A stretch of DNA of 64,000 bases from Acidimicrobiales bacterium. Its GTDB lineage: Bacteria > Actinomycetota > Acidimicrobiia > Acidimicrobiales > Iamiaceae. The translations under genes and the position numbers were made by a program. Below are positions 7,155 to 15,491 of this stretch, piece by piece (positions within the stretch are counted from its first letter, which is position 1; each line of letters begins with the position of its first letter). The DNA is taken from assembly GCA_035547835.1 (NCBI GenBank), contig DASZTW010000005.1:186001-250000 (forward strand), given 5' to 3'. Under the pieces are notes generated by a model that was given only the letters and a program-made list of their open reading frames with translations, had not been told where the DNA came from and did no database searches.

Positions 7155-7613
7155 ATGACCAAGGTTCTCAACGGCATCGACGACCTCAAGGCCAACGTCG
7201 GCCAGCACCTGGGGTACAGCCCATCGGTTGAAGTCACCCAAGAGATGGTGAACCAGTTCGCCGAAGCCACCGGTGATCACCAGTGGATCCACGTCGACGT
7301 GGAGCGCGCCAAGGCCGAGAGCCCGTTCGGCGGGCCGATCGCCCACGGCTACCTCACGCTGTCGTTCGGTCCGCGCCTGCTCCCGCAGACCGTCCGCATC
7401 GAAGGCTTCAAGCTCGGCGTCAACTACGGGGCCGACAAGGTTCGCTTCCCCTCGCCGGTGCCCGTCGGGGCCAAACTCCGGGCGGGCGTCGAGCTCCTCG
7501 ACGTGGCCGACGTGGCCGGCGGGGTGCAGATCAAGTTGCGGATCACCTTCGAGGTCGAAGGCGCCGACAAGCCGGCCTGCGTCGCCGAGGTGCTGTTCCG
7601 TTACTTCGTCTGA
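7155..7613 (+). CDS. MaoC-like (R)-specific enoyl-CoA hydratase
   Basis: Hot-dog fold hydratase that adds water to trans-2-enoyl-CoA or related thioesters. The 152-residue product has the MaoC hydratase motif: FAEATGDHQWIHVD with the catalytic Asp and His, then SPFGGPIAHGYLTLS. The usual strand KVRFPSPVPVGAKLRAGVEL follows. Start could be ATG 7155 or ATG 7146 (three codons longer). CATCAT lies seven bases before 7155, a weak match to the leaderless pattern. The nearby acyl-CoA ligases fit a role in fatty-acid or acyl-CoA metabolism, but the gene has its own start 140 bp before that operon. Confidence 0.85.
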   Translation: MTKVLNGIDDLKANVGQHLGYSPSVEVTQEMVNQFAEATGDHQWIHVDVERAKAESPFGGPIAHGYLTLSFGPRLLPQTVRIEGFKLGVNYGADKVRFPSPVPVGAKLRAGVELLDVADVAGGVQIKLRITFEVEGADKPACVAEVLFRYFV

Positions 7614-7739
7614 TCAAACCAGCGATCAGCGTGTCGGTCCCGCCGTCTGAACCCGTGGGCACGGGCGCCGCGGGGCACCGCCGCCGCGTGCCCTGCGGGC
7701 AGGCGCCGCCACGGATTTCACCGGTCGGGCGGTGACCAC

Positions 7740-7745
7740 TACCGT
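7740..7745 (+). promoter_or_regulatory. -10 hexamer of the five-gene lipid operon (leaderless)
   Basis: TACCGT seven bases before GTG 7753. A longer in-frame GTG at 7732 exists but would start upstream of this hexamer, so 7753 is preferred. The 7614-7739 stretch before it shows only GC-rich short inverted repeats and no gene. Confidence 0.5.
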
Positions 7746-7752
7746 CGCCGCC

Positions 7753-9342
7753 GTGGGGGGAGCGAACCTGGCCGACCTGCTCGAGCAGGTCGCCGAAGAG
7801 CGGCCCACGCGGCCGGCGATCCGAGTCGGTGGGTCCGACGTGACCTACTGCGACTTCGTCGACCGCGTCCACCGCCTCGCCAACGTCTTCGCCGCCGAAG
7901 GCATCGGCGCGGGCGACCACGTGGGCGTGGCACTGCGCAACACCGTCGACCACCTCGCAACCCTGTTCGCGGCGTTCACGGTGCGGGCGGTGCCCGTCAA
8001 CGTGAACTTGCGCTACACCGCCGCCGAGTTGCGGGCACTTTTCACCAGCACCGACCTGCGCGCGGTGATCCACGAACCAGAACCCGACCTCACCCGGGCC
8101 GTCGGCGCGGCGATCGGGCTGACCGCCGACCGTGGAGTGCAGCGCGACATCCACCGCCTGTCGGCCGGCTCCGAGCTCGACGCGGCCATCGCCGGGGCGA
8201 GCAGCGCCCGGCCCGACCACCCACGCAGCGGCGACGATCACTACCTGCTGTGCACCGGCGGCACCACCGGCACCCCCAAAGCGGTGCTGTGGCGTCACGA
8301 GGACTTGTACCTCAGCGCGCTGCAGGGCAGCCATGCGGCCGACGGCGCCCGCGTGCGCCTCTTCCCCGCCAGCCCGCTCACCCACGGCACCGCCCAATGG
8401 ACTGCGCTCATCACACTCCTGTCTGGCGGAACGGTGGTGCTCGGCCACACGACCGGGTTCGACCCCGAGGCGGTGTGGACGTGCGTCGAGCGCTGCTCGG
8501 TCACCCACCTCGTGATCGTCGGCGATGCGTTCGGCCGCCCGCTGGCCCAAGCCCTCGACGCGGCGCCGCGGCGTTGGGAGCTCGGCGACCTGCTCGTGGT
8601 CGTGTCGGGCGGCGCCACGCTGTCGGGCCCGGTCCGGGCGGCGCTGCTCGACCACTTGCCCGGCGCCGCCGTGGTCGACGGCTACGGCACCACGGAGACC
8701 GGCAGCGGCGGGCAGATGGCCGTCTTCCCCGGCCAGGCGGCCTCGGGCCTGCGCCGCTTCGTCGCGAGTCCCGGCACCGCCGTGCTCGACGACGGACTTC
8801 GTCCCGTCGTGCCCGGATCGGGCGCCGTCGGACGCCTGGCCCGGCGCGGTCGTGTGCCGCTCGGCTACTACGGCGACGACGAACGGACCGCCCGCACCTT
8901 CATCACCATCGACGGCGAGCGCTGGGCACTCACCGGCGACCTCGCCTCGGTCGACACCGACGGCACCGTCGTGCTGCTCGGCCGTAGCGAGCGGATCATC
9001 AACACGGGCGGAGAGAAGATCTTCGCCGAGGAAGTCGAAGCGGTCCTCGTCGACCACGAGGCCGTCATCGACGCCGTCGTCGTGGGCGTGCCCGACGAGC
9101 GGTGGGGCGAACGGGTCACCGCGGTCGTCGCGCTCGACCCGCACGACCTCGTCGACCCGTCGGTGCTCATCACCCACTGCCGCCAGCATCTGGCCGGCTT
9201 CAAGACCCCCCGGCGCATCGAAGTGGTCCCCGCGATCCCCCGCCTCAGCAACGGCAAGCCCGACCACCGCTGGGCGCGCATGGTCGCCGGTCGATCTGCC
9301 CGCGACGGCGCCACCGAGCGGGCCACCCACCCAGTTCCCTAG
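7753..9342 (+). CDS. Acyl-CoA synthetase (AMP-binding), first of the lipid operon
   Basis: ANL-superfamily ligase that adenylates a carboxylic acid and transfers it to CoA. The nucleotide loop is LLCTGGTTGTPKAVLW and the A5 motif is DGYGTTETG. The hinge region reads LTGDLASVDTDG, then GRSERIINTGGEKIFAEEVE, and the C-terminal catalytic lysine lies in SNGKPDHRW. The product has about 529 residues. It shares with the next gene the features of actinobacterial FadD19-like ligases, which act on steroid side chains or branched acids. The actual substrate is not readable. It begins a run of five genes spaced by -4 to +16 bp. Confidence 0.85.
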   Translation: MGGANLADLLEQVAEERPTRPAIRVGGSDVTYCDFVDRVHRLANVFAAEGIGAGDHVGVALRNTVDHLATLFAAFTVRAVPVNVNLRYTAAELRALFTSTDLRAVIHEPEPDLTRAVGAAIGLTADRGVQRDIHRLSAGSELDAAIAGASSARPDHPRSGDDHYLLCTGGTTGTPKAVLWRHEDLYLSALQGSHAADGARVRLFPASPLTHGTAQWTALITLLSGGTVVLGHTTGFDPEAVWTCVERCSVTHLVIVGDAFGRPLAQALDAAPRRWELGDLLVVVSGGATLSGPVRAALLDHLPGAAVVDGYGTTETGSGGQMAVFPGQAASGLRRFVASPGTAVLDDGLRPVVPGSGAVGRLARRGRVPLGYYGDDERTARTFITIDGERWALTGDLASVDTDGTVVLLGRSERIINTGGEKIFAEEVEAVLVDHEAVIDAVVVGVPDERWGERVTAVVALDPHDLVDPSVLITHCRQHLAGFKTPRRIEVVPAIPRLSNGKPDHRWARMVAGRSARDGATERATHPVP

Positions 9343-9358
9343 TTCCGAGGAGGCGGCT

Positions 9359-11065
9359 GTGGCCGATCCCGCCGTGACCGATCCTGCAGCACCCCCCGCC
9401 CGCGTGCCCTACAACTTGGCCAAAGTGGTCGACGTCGTGGCGGAGCGGCTGCCCGACCGCGAGGTCATCGTGTGGCGTGACTTGCGGATGACGTACCGCC
9501 AGCTCGTCGCACGTGCCAACCGCGTGGCCAACGTGCTGCACGAGCACGGGCTCGGTGTGCGTGTGGAGCGTGCCGGGTTGGCCGGCCACGAGTCGGGCCA
9601 AGACCACCTCGGCCTCTACCTTCACAACGGCAACCAGTACCTGGAGTCGATGATCGGCGCGTACAAGGCCCGGGTGGCGCCGTTCAACGTCAACTACCGG
9701 TATGTCGCGGAGGAGCTCGAGTACCTCCTGCGCAACAGCGCGGCTCGCGCGCTCGTGTACAGCGCCCGGTTCGCACCGGTGCTCGCCGAAGTGCGCGCCA
9801 ACGCCCCCGACCTGTCGCTGCTGCTCCAAGTGGCCGACGAGTCGGACAACGACCTGCTGCCCGGCGCCATCGACTACGAGACCGCGCTCGCGGCGGCCTC
9901 ACCCGAGCCACCCCCGGGGGTGGAGCCGTCGCCCGACGACTTGTACATCCTCTACACCGGCGGCACGACCGGCATGCCGAAAGGGGTGCTGTGGCGCCAA
10001 GACGACATCTACGTCGGGGCCATGGGCGGCCGCGTCTTCGGCACCGCGAACGAGTACGAGAGCTACGAAGCGATCGCCGACCATGCGGCCGCGGCCGAGG
10101 TCGGGCTCCGGATCATGCCGCTGCCGCCGTTCATGCACGGCGCGGCGCAATGGGCGAGCTGGATGACCTTCACCAACGGCGGCACGATCATCATCCAAGA
10201 CGACGTCGAGCACCTCGATGCTCCCGGCATCTGGCGCCGCGTCGAGCAGGAGAACGTCAACACGGTCATGATCGTGGGCGACTCCTTCGCCCGGCCGCTC
10301 GTCGAGGAGCTCGAGAACGGTGCGCACGACATCTCGTCGATCGTGGCGATCTCCAACGGCGGCGCGCCGCTGAACCCTGCGCTGAAGCAGCGCCTGCTCG
10401 ACCAGCTGCCGGGCACGCTGGTGATCGACGGGGTCGGCGCGTCGGAGACCGGCGCCCAGATGATGTCGGTATCGGCACCCGGCGCGGTGTCCAGCGGCAC
10501 GTTCAACGCGGGGCCCGCCACGGTGGTGCTCGATGAGGACCTCACCAAGGTGCTGCCACCTGGTCACGACGGCACGGGCTGGCTGGCCGAGCAGGGGCGG
10601 GTGCCGCTCGGGTACCTCGGCGATCCCGACAAGACCGCCCGTACGTTCGTCGAGCTCGACGGTGTGCGCTATGCGGTGCCGGGCGACCGCGCCCGCTTGC
10701 TCGACAACGGCCAGATCGAGCTGCTGGGCCGCGACTCGGTGACCATCAACTCCGGCGGCGAGAAGATCTTCGCCGAGGAGGTCGAGCAGGCCATCGCGCA
10801 GCACCCCGCGGTGTACGACGTGGTGGTGGTCGGCAGGCCGAGCGAGCGGTGGGGCAACGAGGTGGTGGCACTCGTGCAAGTGCACGAAGGGCAAACCGTC
10901 ACCGACGATGAGTTGCTCACCGAAGCCGCCGAGCACATCGCCCGCTACAAGTTCCCCAAGCAGTTCATCTACCTGCCTCAGCTCGTGCGGTCGCCAGCGG
11001 GCAAGGCCGACTACCGCTGGGCCCGCGCCCAGGCCGTCGAAGCGCCGGCCGCGGACCAGCCATGA
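9359..11065 (+). CDS. FadD19-like acyl-CoA synthetase, second of the lipid operon
   Basis: A 568-residue ANL ligase. Motifs are LYTGGTTGMPKGVLWR, DGVGASETG, PGDRARL and SVTINSGGEKIFAEEVEQ, with the terminal catalytic lysine in SPAGKADYRWARAQ. The last motif and the NVNYRYVAEELEYLL segment resemble M. tuberculosis FadD19, a steroid side-chain CoA ligase. It starts at GTG 9359 after a strong GAGGAGG Shine-Dalgarno sequence, sixteen bases past the first ligase. Two ligases of the same type in tandem suggest two related acids or a duplicated step, and specificity is inference. The N-terminal insertion around residues 60-80 (GVRVERAGLAGHESGQD) is unlike the first copy. Confidence 0.87.
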   Translation: MADPAVTDPAAPPARVPYNLAKVVDVVAERLPDREVIVWRDLRMTYRQLVARANRVANVLHEHGLGVRVERAGLAGHESGQDHLGLYLHNGNQYLESMIGAYKARVAPFNVNYRYVAEELEYLLRNSAARALVYSARFAPVLAEVRANAPDLSLLLQVADESDNDLLPGAIDYETALAAASPEPPPGVEPSPDDLYILYTGGTTGMPKGVLWRQDDIYVGAMGGRVFGTANEYESYEAIADHAAAAEVGLRIMPLPPFMHGAAQWASWMTFTNGGTIIIQDDVEHLDAPGIWRRVEQENVNTVMIVGDSFARPLVEELENGAHDISSIVAISNGGAPLNPALKQRLLDQLPGTLVIDGVGASETGAQMMSVSAPGAVSSGTFNAGPATVVLDEDLTKVLPPGHDGTGWLAEQGRVPLGYLGDPDKTARTFVELDGVRYAVPGDRARLLDNGQIELLGRDSVTINSGGEKIFAEEVEQAIAQHPAVYDVVVVGRPSERWGNEVVALVQVHEGQTVTDDELLTEAAEHIARYKFPKQFIYLPQLVRSPAGKADYRWARAQAVEAPAADQP

Positions 11066-11075
11066 GCGAGTCGGC

Positions 11076-13046
11076 GTGAGCGAGCGCGCCCGGTTCTCGG
11101 TCCGGCCGGCCCTCGAGCGGCCTGCGCCGCGTGGCGGGCCGGGGCTGATCGCCGGCGCCGCCGAGGTCGACATCACCCCGCCGCCCGGGTTGCCGAAAGC
11201 CGGGTACTCGGCCAACGCGCACGACGGCAACGGCTTCCACACCCGACTGCGCGCCCGCGTGCTGTACCTCGACGACGGCACCACGCCGCTGGCGTTGGTG
11301 GCCTGCGACCTGCTCGGCGGATCGTCGGTGCTCCAGCACCGCGTCGCGGAGGCCGTCGCGGCGACCACCAGGGTCCGCCTGCCGGGTCTGTTCATCGGCG
11401 CGACCCACACCCACGCCGGGCCCGGCCAGTTCCTCGGCACCGACTTCTACAACCGGTTCGCCTCGAACCGGTCGGGGTTCGACCCAGGCTGGGTCGACTT
11501 CCTGGTCGAGCGGATCAGCGGCGCGGTCACCGAGGCCGTGACCGGGGCCGGCCCCGCGTCGCTGGCGATCGGCACGGCCGACGTGTGGGGCTCGACCCGG
11601 AACCGATCACACCCCGCGCACGTCGAGAACGAGACCGTCGCCGACAAGCGGACGGAACCCCAACGGAAGTGGTCGGCCGTCAACCCCGAGCTGCACGTGA
11701 TCCGTGCGGACCGGGTCGACGGCGACGCACCCCGGCCGCTCGCCGCGTTCGCGGTGTTCTCGATCCACGGCACCGGCGTCCCGCAGCGAACGCACTCTTA
11801 CAACGCCGATGTGTGGGCTTACCTCACCGGTGAGCTCGACCGCCGCATCGAAGCCTCGGCGGGGGCCCGGGCGGTGGTGGGCGCGGTCGAAGGCACCCAC
11901 GCCGACGTCGCTCCCGCGCTGCGTCCAGGTATGGCCGGCCACGTGGAAGCTCGCCGAATCGGGCGAACGATCGGTGCAGCCGCGCACGAGCTCTGGGCGT
12001 CGCTGGCCCAGGACTTGCGCACCGACGTCGAGCTCGGCGCCGGCTTGCGGGAAGTCGACTTGGACCGGTCGCGGCGCATCGGCGAGATCGAGCTGCCGCG
12101 CCGCGGGGCGGTCGGCGCGGCCCTGGTGGCCGGCGCCACCGAGAACACGACCCCCGTGCTCGACAAGTTGCCGCCGTTCACGCCCGGTCACCCCAGGCGG
12201 TGGGGCCGGCCCGGACCGCAAGGCGCCAAGTGGGTCATCGGCTCACGGTGGTTGCAGCCGCTGGTCGTGCCGCCACGCTCGATGCCGCGCATCATCCCGG
12301 TGCAAGTGCTCCGGTTGGCCGACACGGCGCTGATCGGCCTGCCGTTCGAGATCACCGTCGAGTCGGGGCGGCGCATCGCGGCTGCGGCGTGGGCTGCGCT
12401 CGACGAGAGCGCAGCGGGCCGAGGTGGGGTCGACCGCGTCGTCGTGTCGTCGGTGGCCAACGAGTACTGCGGCTACGTGGCCACCGCCGAGGAGTACGGC
12501 CAGCAGTGGTACGAGGGCGGCCACACGCTGTACGGACCCCGCACGCAGGCGTTCCTCGCGGCGCACGCGGCAGAAGTCGCCCACCACACCCTCGCCCACG
12601 GCTGGTTCCACGACGTGGCGGCGTCGCGGTCGTGGGACCTGAAAGTGCGCCGCTTCCTGCCATCGCCGGTGGCACCCCCCGAAGTCCCGCCCGCCCAGCC
12701 GGACGGGAAACCGACGTTCACCGACCCCGCGCCGACGGTCGACGGGCACTGGTCGTTCGAATGGATCGGCGGCCCGCCTACCACGCTGTGCTGGCACCGC
12801 ACGATGGTGTCGGTCGAGGCAAGCGACGACGACGGGACGACATGGCGGCCAGCCATCGCGGACGGGCGACCGGTCGACGACCAGGGCTGGGACGTCGAGG
12901 TCACGCACCTTGGCGACGCGTCGCCGCCGGGCCGCCACCGCTACCGGGCCCGTTGGTTCAACCCCGACCTGCGGGCCGGCCGCGTCCACCGGTTCATCGT
13001 CGCCACCGGTGGTGGCGCCTCGCTCAGCTCCCCGGCGTTCGACTAA
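11076..13046 (+). CDS. Neutral-ceramidase family protein lacking the catalytic serine
   Basis: Neutral/alkaline non-lysosomal ceramidase family (zinc amidases that split ceramide into sphingoid base and fatty acid). The 656-residue product has the start GAAEVDITPPPGLPKAGYS and the zinc-site motif GATHTHAGPGQF (near 108-118). FSIHGTGV follows with His231, then NEYCGY with Glu463 and YEGGHTLYGP with a ligand tyrosine. A C-terminal beta domain is also present. The position of the nucleophilic serine (NLSPN in Pseudomonas, DVSPN in human) reads DVAPA, with Ala279. There is no signal peptide. It starts at GTG 11076, ten bases after the ligase. The fold is clear, but the activity may be changed or lost. 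Confidence 0.82.
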   Translation: MSERARFSVRPALERPAPRGGPGLIAGAAEVDITPPPGLPKAGYSANAHDGNGFHTRLRARVLYLDDGTTPLALVACDLLGGSSVLQHRVAEAVAATTRVRLPGLFIGATHTHAGPGQFLGTDFYNRFASNRSGFDPGWVDFLVERISGAVTEAVTGAGPASLAIGTADVWGSTRNRSHPAHVENETVADKRTEPQRKWSAVNPELHVIRADRVDGDAPRPLAAFAVFSIHGTGVPQRTHSYNADVWAYLTGELDRRIEASAGARAVVGAVEGTHADVAPALRPGMAGHVEARRIGRTIGAAAHELWASLAQDLRTDVELGAGLREVDLDRSRRIGEIELPRRGAVGAALVAGATENTTPVLDKLPPFTPGHPRRWGRPGPQGAKWVIGSRWLQPLVVPPRSMPRIIPVQVLRLADTALIGLPFEITVESGRRIAAAAWAALDESAAGRGGVDRVVVSSVANEYCGYVATAEEYGQQWYEGGHTLYGPRTQAFLAAHAAEVAHHTLAHGWFHDVAASRSWDLKVRRFLPSPVAPPEVPPAQPDGKPTFTDPAPTVDGHWSFEWIGGPPTTLCWHRTMVSVEASDDDGTTWRPAIADGRPVDDQGWDVEVTHLGDASPPGRHRYRARWFNPDLRAGRVHRFIVATGGGASLSSPAFD

Positions 13047-13056
13047 AGAAGGTCCC

Positions 13057-14460
13057 GTGGGCACGACACCGTTCGACCTCGACGCACTCCTCGCCCGCGT
13101 GGCCGACGCGCCGGCGATCCACCACGCGCACCTGAACCACCAACTGGTCAGCGTCCTCGAGCTCACCGGGTTCGACCGCCGCTACGTACGGGCCGACGGC
13201 TGCCTGCTGTACGACGACGAAGGTCGCGACTACCTCGACTTCCTTGCCGGGTTCGGGGTGTTCGCGCTCGGTCGCAACCACCCGGTCGTCAAAGACGCGC
13301 TGGTCGACGCGCTCGACCGCGACCTCGCGCACTTGGTGCAGTTCGACACGCCGTTGCTGGCCGGGTTGCTGGCCGAGGAGCTGGTCAACCGCGCGGGCGG
13401 CGGGCTGTCGCGCTGCTTCTTCGGCAACAGCGGCGCAGAAGCCAACGAGACAGCCATCAAGCTCGCCCGGCGCCACACCGGCCACTCGCGCATCGTCTAC
13501 TGCGACCACGCGTTCCACGGCCTGACCACCGGCGCGCTGGCGCTCAACGGTGGTGCCGAGTTCCGGGAGGGCTTCGAGCCGCTGCTGCCGGGCACCGCCC
13601 CGGTGCCGTTCGGTGACCTCGAAGCGCTCGAGGCCGAGCTCCGCCGCGGCGACGTGGCTGCGTTCGTGATCGAGCCGATCCAGGGCAAGACCGTCGAGAT
13701 CGCGACACCGTCCTATCTGCGCGGTGCCCTCGAGCTGTGCCACCAGCACGGCGCGCTGCTGGTGATCGACGAAGTGCAGACCGGCTTGGGGCGGACCGGT
13801 GAACTGTTCTGCTACCAGCACGCCGGCATCGAGCCCGACCTCGTCACCATGGCCAAAGCGCTTTCCGCAGGCTTCATCCCGGTCGGGGCCACCTTGTGCC
13901 GCGACGACATCTGGCGCTCGACGTACAGCTCGCTCGATCGCGCCATGGTCCACTCCTCCACGTTCGGACAGAACACGCTCGCCGCCGTGGCGGGCCACGT
14001 GTTCCTCCACGTGCTCGACGAGGAAGACCTGCTCAGCAACGCCCGGCGCACGGGCGCGCTGCTCACCAACGGCATCAAGCAGCTCGCCGGCCACCACGAC
14101 ATGATCAGCGATGTCCGTGGCCTCGGCTTGATGATCGGCATCGAGTTCGACCAGCCTTCCGCCGCACCCGGCAAGGCGGCGTTCCGGCTGCTGCAGGCGA
14201 TGCGTCACGGTCTGTTCTCGCAGATGGTCGTCGGGCCGCTGTTCAACGATCACCGGATCCTCACGCAAGTCGCCGCCGACGACGTCAACATCGTGAAGCT
14301 CCTCCCACCGCTGGTGGCCGGCCCCGCCGAGGTCGAGCGGTTCGTGACCGCGCTCGACGACGTGCTTCGCAAAGCGCGTCACATGGGCACGTCCACCGTT
14401 CGCCTCGGGCGCGACTTCGCCACGCGCGGCCTGAAGGCGAGGAGGAAGCACAAGTCGTGA
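13057..14460 (+). CDS. Class III PLP-dependent aminotransferase
   Basis: Fold-type I aminotransferase of the acetylornithine/4-aminobutyrate class. The 467-residue product shows FFGNSGAEANETAIKLARR, DHAFHGLT, the PLP aspartate in LLVIDEVQTGLGRTG, the Schiff-base lysine in VTMAKALSAGFIPVG and HSSTFGQNTLAAVAG. The C-terminal tail is basic (LKARRKHKS). It starts at GTG 13057 after AAGAAGG. The product of the next gene resembles the hopanoid/ceramide-pathway epimerase family. Candidate roles are therefore an HpnO-like transaminase or one acting on a long-chain amino-alcohol. Neither is proven by the sequence. Confidence 0.85.
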   Translation: MGTTPFDLDALLARVADAPAIHHAHLNHQLVSVLELTGFDRRYVRADGCLLYDDEGRDYLDFLAGFGVFALGRNHPVVKDALVDALDRDLAHLVQFDTPLLAGLLAEELVNRAGGGLSRCFFGNSGAEANETAIKLARRHTGHSRIVYCDHAFHGLTTGALALNGGAEFREGFEPLLPGTAPVPFGDLEALEAELRRGDVAAFVIEPIQGKTVEIATPSYLRGALELCHQHGALLVIDEVQTGLGRTGELFCYQHAGIEPDLVTMAKALSAGFIPVGATLCRDDIWRSTYSSLDRAMVHSSTFGQNTLAAVAGHVFLHVLDEEDLLSNARRTGALLTNGIKQLAGHHDMISDVRGLGLMIGIEFDQPSAAPGKAAFRLLQAMRHGLFSQMVVGPLFNDHRILTQVAADDVNIVKLLPPLVAGPAEVERFVTALDDVLRKARHMGTSTVRLGRDFATRGLKARRKHKS

Positions 14461-15491
14461 GCGTGCCGAATCCGCTCGTCCGGCCCGTCGGCGACGACGA
14501 CCTCGTCCTCGTCACGGGCGCTGCCGGGTTCATCGGCTCGCACATCGTGAAGGCTGCGCTGGCACGGGGGTGTCGTGTGCGCGCCATGGTCGAGCCGGGC
14601 GACCCTGCCCTCGAGCTCGAAGGTCTCGACGTGGAGCGGGCCGACGTCGACGTGCGCGACCGCGCCGCAGTGATGGATGCCGTGGCGGGCACGAGCCTCG
14701 TGATCCACACCGCCGCCGTCTACAAGTTCTGGGCGCCCGACCCCGACGTGTTCTACGACGTCAACGTCGACGGCACGATCCACGTGATCGAAGCGGCGGG
14801 CGCTGCCGGGCTCCGGACGGTGTACACGAGCACCGTCGGCACCTTGGGCTTGCGGGCCGATCGGCAGCCCGCCACCGAATCCGAACGCCCACGCATCGAC
14901 CAGCTCTACGGCCACTACAAGCGCTCGAAGTACGTCGCCGAACACGAGGCGCTCCGTCTCGCGGCGCAAGGGGCTGACGTCGTGCTCGGCATGCCGACGT
15001 TCCCCGTCGGCGACGGCGACCGTGCGCCGACCCCCACCGGCGGCACCATCTTGCGCTTCTTGAATCACCAGATGCCGGGGTTCGTCGACACCGTCCTCAA
15101 CGTGGTGGACGTCGCCGATGTGGCCGAAGGCCACTTGCTGGCGGCCGAGCGTGGGCGTACGGGTCGCAGCTACATCTTCGGCGGTCGCGACTTCACGCTC
15201 GCCGAGTTGCTGCACGTGCTGGCCGACCACACGGGGTTGCCGGCACCGACCCGCCATGTCCCCGAATGGGTCGCGCTCGGCGCGGCACGGGCCAGCGACT
15301 TCTTCGAGGGAACGCTGCTGCGCCGCGAGCCGCACGTCCCGCTCGAGGCAGCCCGCATGTCGGCCAAACCCATGCCGTTCGACGACACCCGGGCGCGCAC
15401 CGAGCTCGGCTACACGTCGGGACCGCCCGAAGCCGCCCTCGCCCGCGCCGCCGACTGGTTCCGCGCGCACGGCTACGCCCCCGCCGGCTGA
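14457..15491 (+). CDS. NAD-dependent epimerase/dehydratase (HpnA/CerR-like)
   Basis: Extended SDR of 344 residues with the NAD loop TGAAGFIGSHIVKAAL, the aspartate region DVDVRDRAAV and HTAAVYKFWAPD. The YGHYKRSK catalytic Tyr-X3-Lys and a C-terminal substrate domain follow. The family includes hopanoid-associated HpnA and the ketosphinganine reductase CerR of bacterial ceramide synthesis. It starts at GTG 14457, overlapping the aminotransferase stop as GTGA, with GAGGAGG upstream. It is last in the five-gene operon. Its substrate is unknown. Confidence 0.82.
   Translation: MSVPNPLVRPVGDDDLVLVTGAAGFIGSHIVKAALARGCRVRAMVEPGDPALELEGLDVERADVDVRDRAAVMDAVAGTSLVIHTAAVYKFWAPDPDVFYDVNVDGTIHVIEAAGAAGLRTVYTSTVGTLGLRADRQPATESERPRIDQLYGHYKRSKYVAEHEALRLAAQGADVVLGMPTFPVGDGDRAPTPTGGTILRFLNHQMPGFVDTVLNVVDVADVAEGHLLAAERGRTGRSYIFGGRDFTLAELLHVLADHTGLPAPTRHVPEWVALGAARASDFFEGTLLRREPHVPLEAARMSAKPMPFDDTRARTELGYTSGPPEAALARAADWFRAHGYAPAG

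Follow-up and report, generated by a model that had tools for sequence, protein, structure and literature searches.

The five-gene lipid-enzyme array described here is real but was wrongly read as one pathway, and its lasting part is a pair of genes, one of the hpnO family and one hpnA-like, that recurs across Acidimicrobiia. The array is best explained as a composite transcription unit built from three unrelated blocks: a pair of acyl-CoA ligases (LIG1 and LIG2), a protein of the ceramidase fold family (CER) and an aminotransferase followed by a short-chain dehydrogenase/reductase (AMT and SDR). With about two-thirds confidence, we read AMT from its sequence as an HpnO that would aminate ribosylhopane, with the HpnA-like SDR acting on the same aldehyde and with the ligases and CER standing outside the pathway of the hopanoids, which are sterol-like bacterial lipids. 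We go no higher because some genomes with AMT show no detectable hopanoid cyclase gene (SHC), because the only HpnG match in the genome is weak and because AMT sits on a long branch.

The window, that is, the whole stretch of 64,000 nucleotides analysed from an Acidimicrobiales bacterium, carries the five genes in a tight run on one strand, with gaps of 16, 10, 10 and -4 bp (see the table). The genes, their order and their spacing, as given in the original prediction, were all found again in our reading of its open reading frames, and so were the family calls (two AMP-binding ligases, a PF04734 protein, an Aminotran_3 enzyme and an SDR of the Epimerase/3Beta_HSD type; Pfam and NCBIfam). The start proposed at position 7740, by contrast, is out of frame for LIG1, for which the in-frame starts are 7732 and 7753, the second of these fitting the N-termini of the orthologues better. 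The maoC gene ends 118 bp upstream of LIG1, and SD-like sequences (GAGGAGG/GAAGG) precede LIG2, AMT and SDR. A consensus scan of the array region returned no sigma-70-like promoter, and the promoter/terminator scan gave no guidance; from the spacing of the genes we infer that they are co-transcribed.

Table. Genes of the array and its upstream neighbour (positions in the window).
Gene	Product or family	Position	Strand	Remarks
maoC	MaoC-like hydratase	7155..7613	+	PF01575 91 bits; precedes the two ligase genes in the ancestral block
LIG1	Acyl-CoA ligase, PRK07798 subfamily	7732..9342	+	GTG start; start may be 7753
LIG2	Acyl-CoA ligase, PRK07798 subfamily	9359..11065	+	GTG start
CER	Alkaline/neutral ceramidase fold family	11076..13046	+	GTG start; PF04734 160.6 bits
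AMT	Class III PLP aminotransferase, HpnO family	13057..14460	+	GTG start; PF00202 297.6 bits
SDR	HpnA-like extended SDR	14457..15491	+	GTG start; 4 bp overlap with AMT

The five-gene set was absent from every locus that we read in the relatives, which rules it out as a conserved module. In fact, the blocks lie apart in these genomes, against the proposal that the five genes form one set serving one pathway, and gene-order conservation, the check suggested at the outset, fails for the whole set and holds for the AMT-SDR pair. What is conserved around the ligases is an old syntenic block: the window's order EndoIII-like - W2942 - RlmN - nucleotidyltransferase - MaoC - LIG1 - LIG2 (the outer genes being named from sequence inspection) recurs in relatives with small changes, and maoC stands upstream of LIG1-LIG2 in their syntenic loci (67-72% identical). 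By this comparison maoC-LIG1-LIG2 is ancestral. In the relatives that share this block other genes follow LIG2, and for that reason CER, AMT and SDR appear to have been added downstream of it in the lineage of the window. Thus, an ancestral fatty-acyl block would have gained CER and the hpnO-hpnA-like pair downstream, in this lineage only.

Both ligases exceed the subfamily cut-off of the PRK07798 model (556 and 710 bits, cut-off 543; NCBIfam) and differ from other acyl-CoA synthetases of this type in being paired, and syntenic with maoC, in the window's bacterial family. Orthologues of LIG1 (~50-55%) adjoin those of LIG2 in about nine relatives; LIG2 orthologues are 56-67% identical within the family, and two further LIG2 paralogues are found in the window's own genome. 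The solved structures retrieved for the two proteins were distant ANL enzymes only and gave no hint of a substrate.

AMT is assigned to the HpnO family because it groups with aminotransferases encoded beside SHC, HpnG and HpnH. In a 90-row tree, the window's AMT and all hopanoid-linked aminotransferases fall on one branch (100/100), the other class III aminotransferases remaining outside. Homologues of AMT, 47-60% identical, lie directly beside HpnH/HpnG/SHC genes in Streptomyces, Actinospica, a Methylococcaceae bin and others, and also near SHC in Phycisphaerales and Aciditerrimonas, these hopanoid neighbours being identified from sequence motifs and not with full models. Of 26 residues fixed among the hopanoid-linked members and nearly absent elsewhere, AMT keeps 21, against 0-3 in the outgroup, and its PLP lysine is Lys267, in TMAKALSAG. 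Within the clade, however, AMT forms the longest branch and its exact position changes with the outgroup: it branches first when a distant outgroup is used and joins the AMT-SDR rows of its own order when that outgroup is left out (90/93).

HpnO makes aminobacteriohopanetriol, and in Alphaproteobacteria its gene is mostly found away from the main hpn cluster (PMC12583986); in Streptomyces, the hopanoid cluster contains HpnO, which is required for aminobacteriohopanetriol (PMC9228677). AMT resembles the HpnO of Rhodopseudomonas and Streptomyces as a class III PLP enzyme of the same clade, with a gene outside the main hpn cluster. It differs from them in its deep, long branch and in its place within an acyl-ligase array, where it overlaps an hpnA-like gene, and its activity is putative. 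In Bacillaceae, tandem pairs of divergent class III aminotransferase genes were seen at seven loci (L117, L118, L120-L124), each product being ~29-38% identical to AMT.

The hopanoid cyclase gene said to be missing is indeed absent from the window, but not from the genome (G000), where contig C15 carries an HpnC-HpnD-HpnE-prenyl synthase-SHC-IspH-HpnH cluster. HpnC, HpnE, SHC (TIGR01507, 760 bits), IspH and HpnH (TIGR03470, 507 bits) are over their NCBIfam cut-offs and HpnD is just below its own. The window's genome is predicted to hold the genes for adenosylhopane, SHC and HpnH, and it is the only one among the 23 genomes of the family in which these two exceed their cut-offs. No HpnG was found in its hpn cluster, in which IspH sits between SHC and HpnH. 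The lone HpnG match in the genome (94 bits, cut-off 187) is not near SHC or HpnH, and similar matches also occur in relatives without hopanoid genes; the 187-bit cut-off is uninformative in this order, in which an HpnG-like gene inside the hopanoid cluster of genome G053 scores only ~64. On contig C15, IspH occupies the place held in relatives such as G053 by the HpnG-like gene (L151 9823-13715). In two hopanoid clusters from different families, hpnC has beside it a gene for a MerR-like protein (L151 4609-5427 and L153 16474-17265), identified by eye from the N-terminal residues; this protein is a candidate hopanoid regulator.

Across 397 genomes of the order, SHC was found in 38/53 genomes with AMT and in 41/344 without it (OR 18.7, p 3e-19, with no correction for phylogeny). 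Thus, the idea of an aminated hopanoid-like product gains support for AMT and SDR, from the HpnO clade and from linkage and co-occurrence with SHC.

The best NCBIfam model for SDR is by far HpnA (TIGR03466), and the motifs TGxxGxxG and YxxxK are both present. Its score of 361.8 bits lies just under the cut-off of 367.65, and because of these ~6 bits we call it HpnA-like and not HpnA; orthologues encoded beside AMT straddle the same cut-off (339.8-399.3), several of them passing it. A further difference from HpnA is its partner, which is hpnO and not hpnG or hpnH. The best solved relative, 3wj7, is a 'putative oxidoreductase' that we take to be Gox2253 of Gluconobacter. AMT and SDR occur in the same 3/61 near genomes (G000, G050 and G053), always as neighbours and with their order unchanged, and SDR was found directly downstream of AMT at 25 distinct loci besides the window, in many unrelated neighbourhoods (public genome scan and search of the 397 genomes of the order, G050 and G053 included). 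Counting the window, these 26 AMT-SDR rows come from bins of Acidimicrobiia type, plus one of Myxococcales. Between the two proteins, pairwise identities are correlated (r=0.90, Mantel 0/5000), with shared ancestry, which was not removed, contributing to r. By gene order, AMT-SDR is a recurrent two-gene unit, hpnO plus hpnA-like.

How would such a pair operate? Adenosylhopane is the product of HpnH, ribosylhopane that of HpnG and the 35-amine that of HpnO (PMC12583986, PMC5462960). HpnA is without an assigned function, and the enzyme that converts ribosylhopane to bacteriohopanetetrol has not been identified (PMC12583986, PMC5462960); ribosylhopane reduction has been proposed for HpnA, with counter-evidence from Burkholderia, both being noted in PMC5462960. 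In the window's organism, ribosylhopane would be supplied through the HpnC/D/E-SHC-HpnH cluster on contig C15. AMT would then transaminate its ring-opened C35 aldehyde, the presumed substrate, to give 35-aminobacteriohopanetriol, and SDR would most likely act on the same aldehyde or on its sugar-like side chain, presumably by reduction or epimerisation.

The pair could instead derive from HpnO and HpnA and use a non-hopanoid sugar-like or lipid aldehyde, its co-occurrence with hopanoid genes reflecting shared ancestry only. We consider this unlikely. SHC was not detected at the threshold used in 15 AMT-positive genomes, in many of which AMT is paired with SDR; HpnH is over cut-off in one of these genomes and partial in another. 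Neither SHC nor HpnH was detected in seven SDR-paired genomes that are 93-97% complete (G050, G067, G118, G186, G278, G305 and G351; loci L045 and L234-L239). Roughly one in two of the checked genomes with the AMT-SDR pair has no SHC, and AMT without an adjacent SDR was read almost only in genomes that have SHC. The long branch of the window's AMT would also fit a changed substrate. On the other side, the seven genomes are scattered among SHC-positive relatives, G050 has SHC-positive congeners with the same locus, and HpnH lies at contig ends in G176 and G267; because of these observations, some of the absences are losses or assembly gaps. In addition, the window's own genome does carry the hopanoid cluster. 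We thus favour the assignment of AMT and SDR to ribosylhopane in the window's organism, while in the SHC-less genomes the pair may have another substrate, since SHC and HpnH are mostly undetected there.

CER shares with neutral ceramidases (PaCD of P. aeruginosa, 2zws, its best solved relative, and human ASAH2, 4wgk) the fold family and the His/His/Glu/Tyr zinc-site motifs: HTH, IHGTG, PFEIT, the Tyr motif and RNRS are kept in an alignment to 2zws and to the orthologues that cover them. It differs from these enzymes at the serine of GDVSPN, replaced by alanine in CER (ADVAPA) and in all close orthologues (motif table), in showing no obvious signal peptide and in reaching 105 bits against the 1200-bit cut-off of NF041649, the equivalog model for neutral ceramidase. 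For these three reasons we would not file CER as a ceramidase. Its orthologues (57-65%) are spread over most of the family's other genomes, with one more genome of the order also carrying the gene. At the loci read, none of LIG1, LIG2, AMT and SDR lies beside these orthologues, the sole ligase match (L035) being a 30% distant relative. In 10/16 of the relatives' loci read, the orthologue stands at most two genes from lgt, the prolipoprotein diacylglyceryl transferase gene (L022-L025, L029-L032, L034 and L004), and this proximity suggests an ancestral link to envelope lipid or lipoprotein acylation, not to hopanoids. Two orthologues are interrupted, one split into two reading frames (G016, L036 8922-10872) and one with a single in-frame TAG (G014, L010/L029); sequencing error and decay are both possible in each.

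A sphingoid-base or ceramide operon, in which a ceramidase, an aminotransferase, a CerR-like reductase and ligases cooperate, thus appears very improbable. Its appeal lies in the ceramidase fold family of CER and in the precedent of FumI, a class III aminotransferase that acts on fumonisin during degradation of this sphingoid-like toxin. The ceramidase score and the alanine shared by all close orthologues argue against it, as do the hopanoid-linked clade of AMT, the fit of SDR to HpnA and the unconserved gene set; the sphingoid-like product first envisaged finds no support here. The SphBC-type sphingosine metabolism of Pseudomonas, with its periplasmic oxidase and cytochrome c, was also considered and is unlike this gene set.

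A more elaborate possibility is that the whole operon makes or remodels an N-acyl-aminobacteriohopanetriol, a ceramide-like hopanoid, with LIG1/LIG2 activating fatty acids, HpnO providing the amine and CER forming or cleaving the amide. The five genes are united only in the family's one genome with a hopanoid cluster, CER retains zinc-site motifs belonging to an N-acyl amidase fold, and N-acylaminotriols carrying palmitic or similar acids have been described from Nitrosomonas and from thermophiles (PMC8537080). A CER working as an N-acyl amidase or acyltransferase on aminobacteriohopanetriol would fit these compounds (PMC8537080), on the basis of one adjacency. We nevertheless regard this scheme as improbable: CER, LIG1 and LIG2 are common among relatives that lack hopanoid genes, CER at loci separate from the ligases, and no other AMT locus read has an adjoining CER. 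Every one of these adjacencies was met only once. Its strictest version, a dedicated unit in which the serine-less CER forms or breaks the amide and SDR is the ribosylhopane reductase, seems to us a shade more doubtful still. Because of this wide and separate distribution, the basic roles of CER, LIG1 and LIG2 appear independent of hopanoids, and these proteins probably serve general acyl metabolism.

Read as a composite unit with an HpnO-HpnA-like pair at its end, the array has wider implications. A recurrent hpnO-hpnA-like unit in Acidimicrobiia would put HpnA at the step of HpnO, which makes the function of HpnA directly testable. Should closed genomes confirm them, AMT-SDR pairs in genomes that lack detectable hopanoid genes would pose a genuine puzzle. 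Finally, uncultured Acidimicrobiia emerge as likely sources of aminobacteriohopanetriol.
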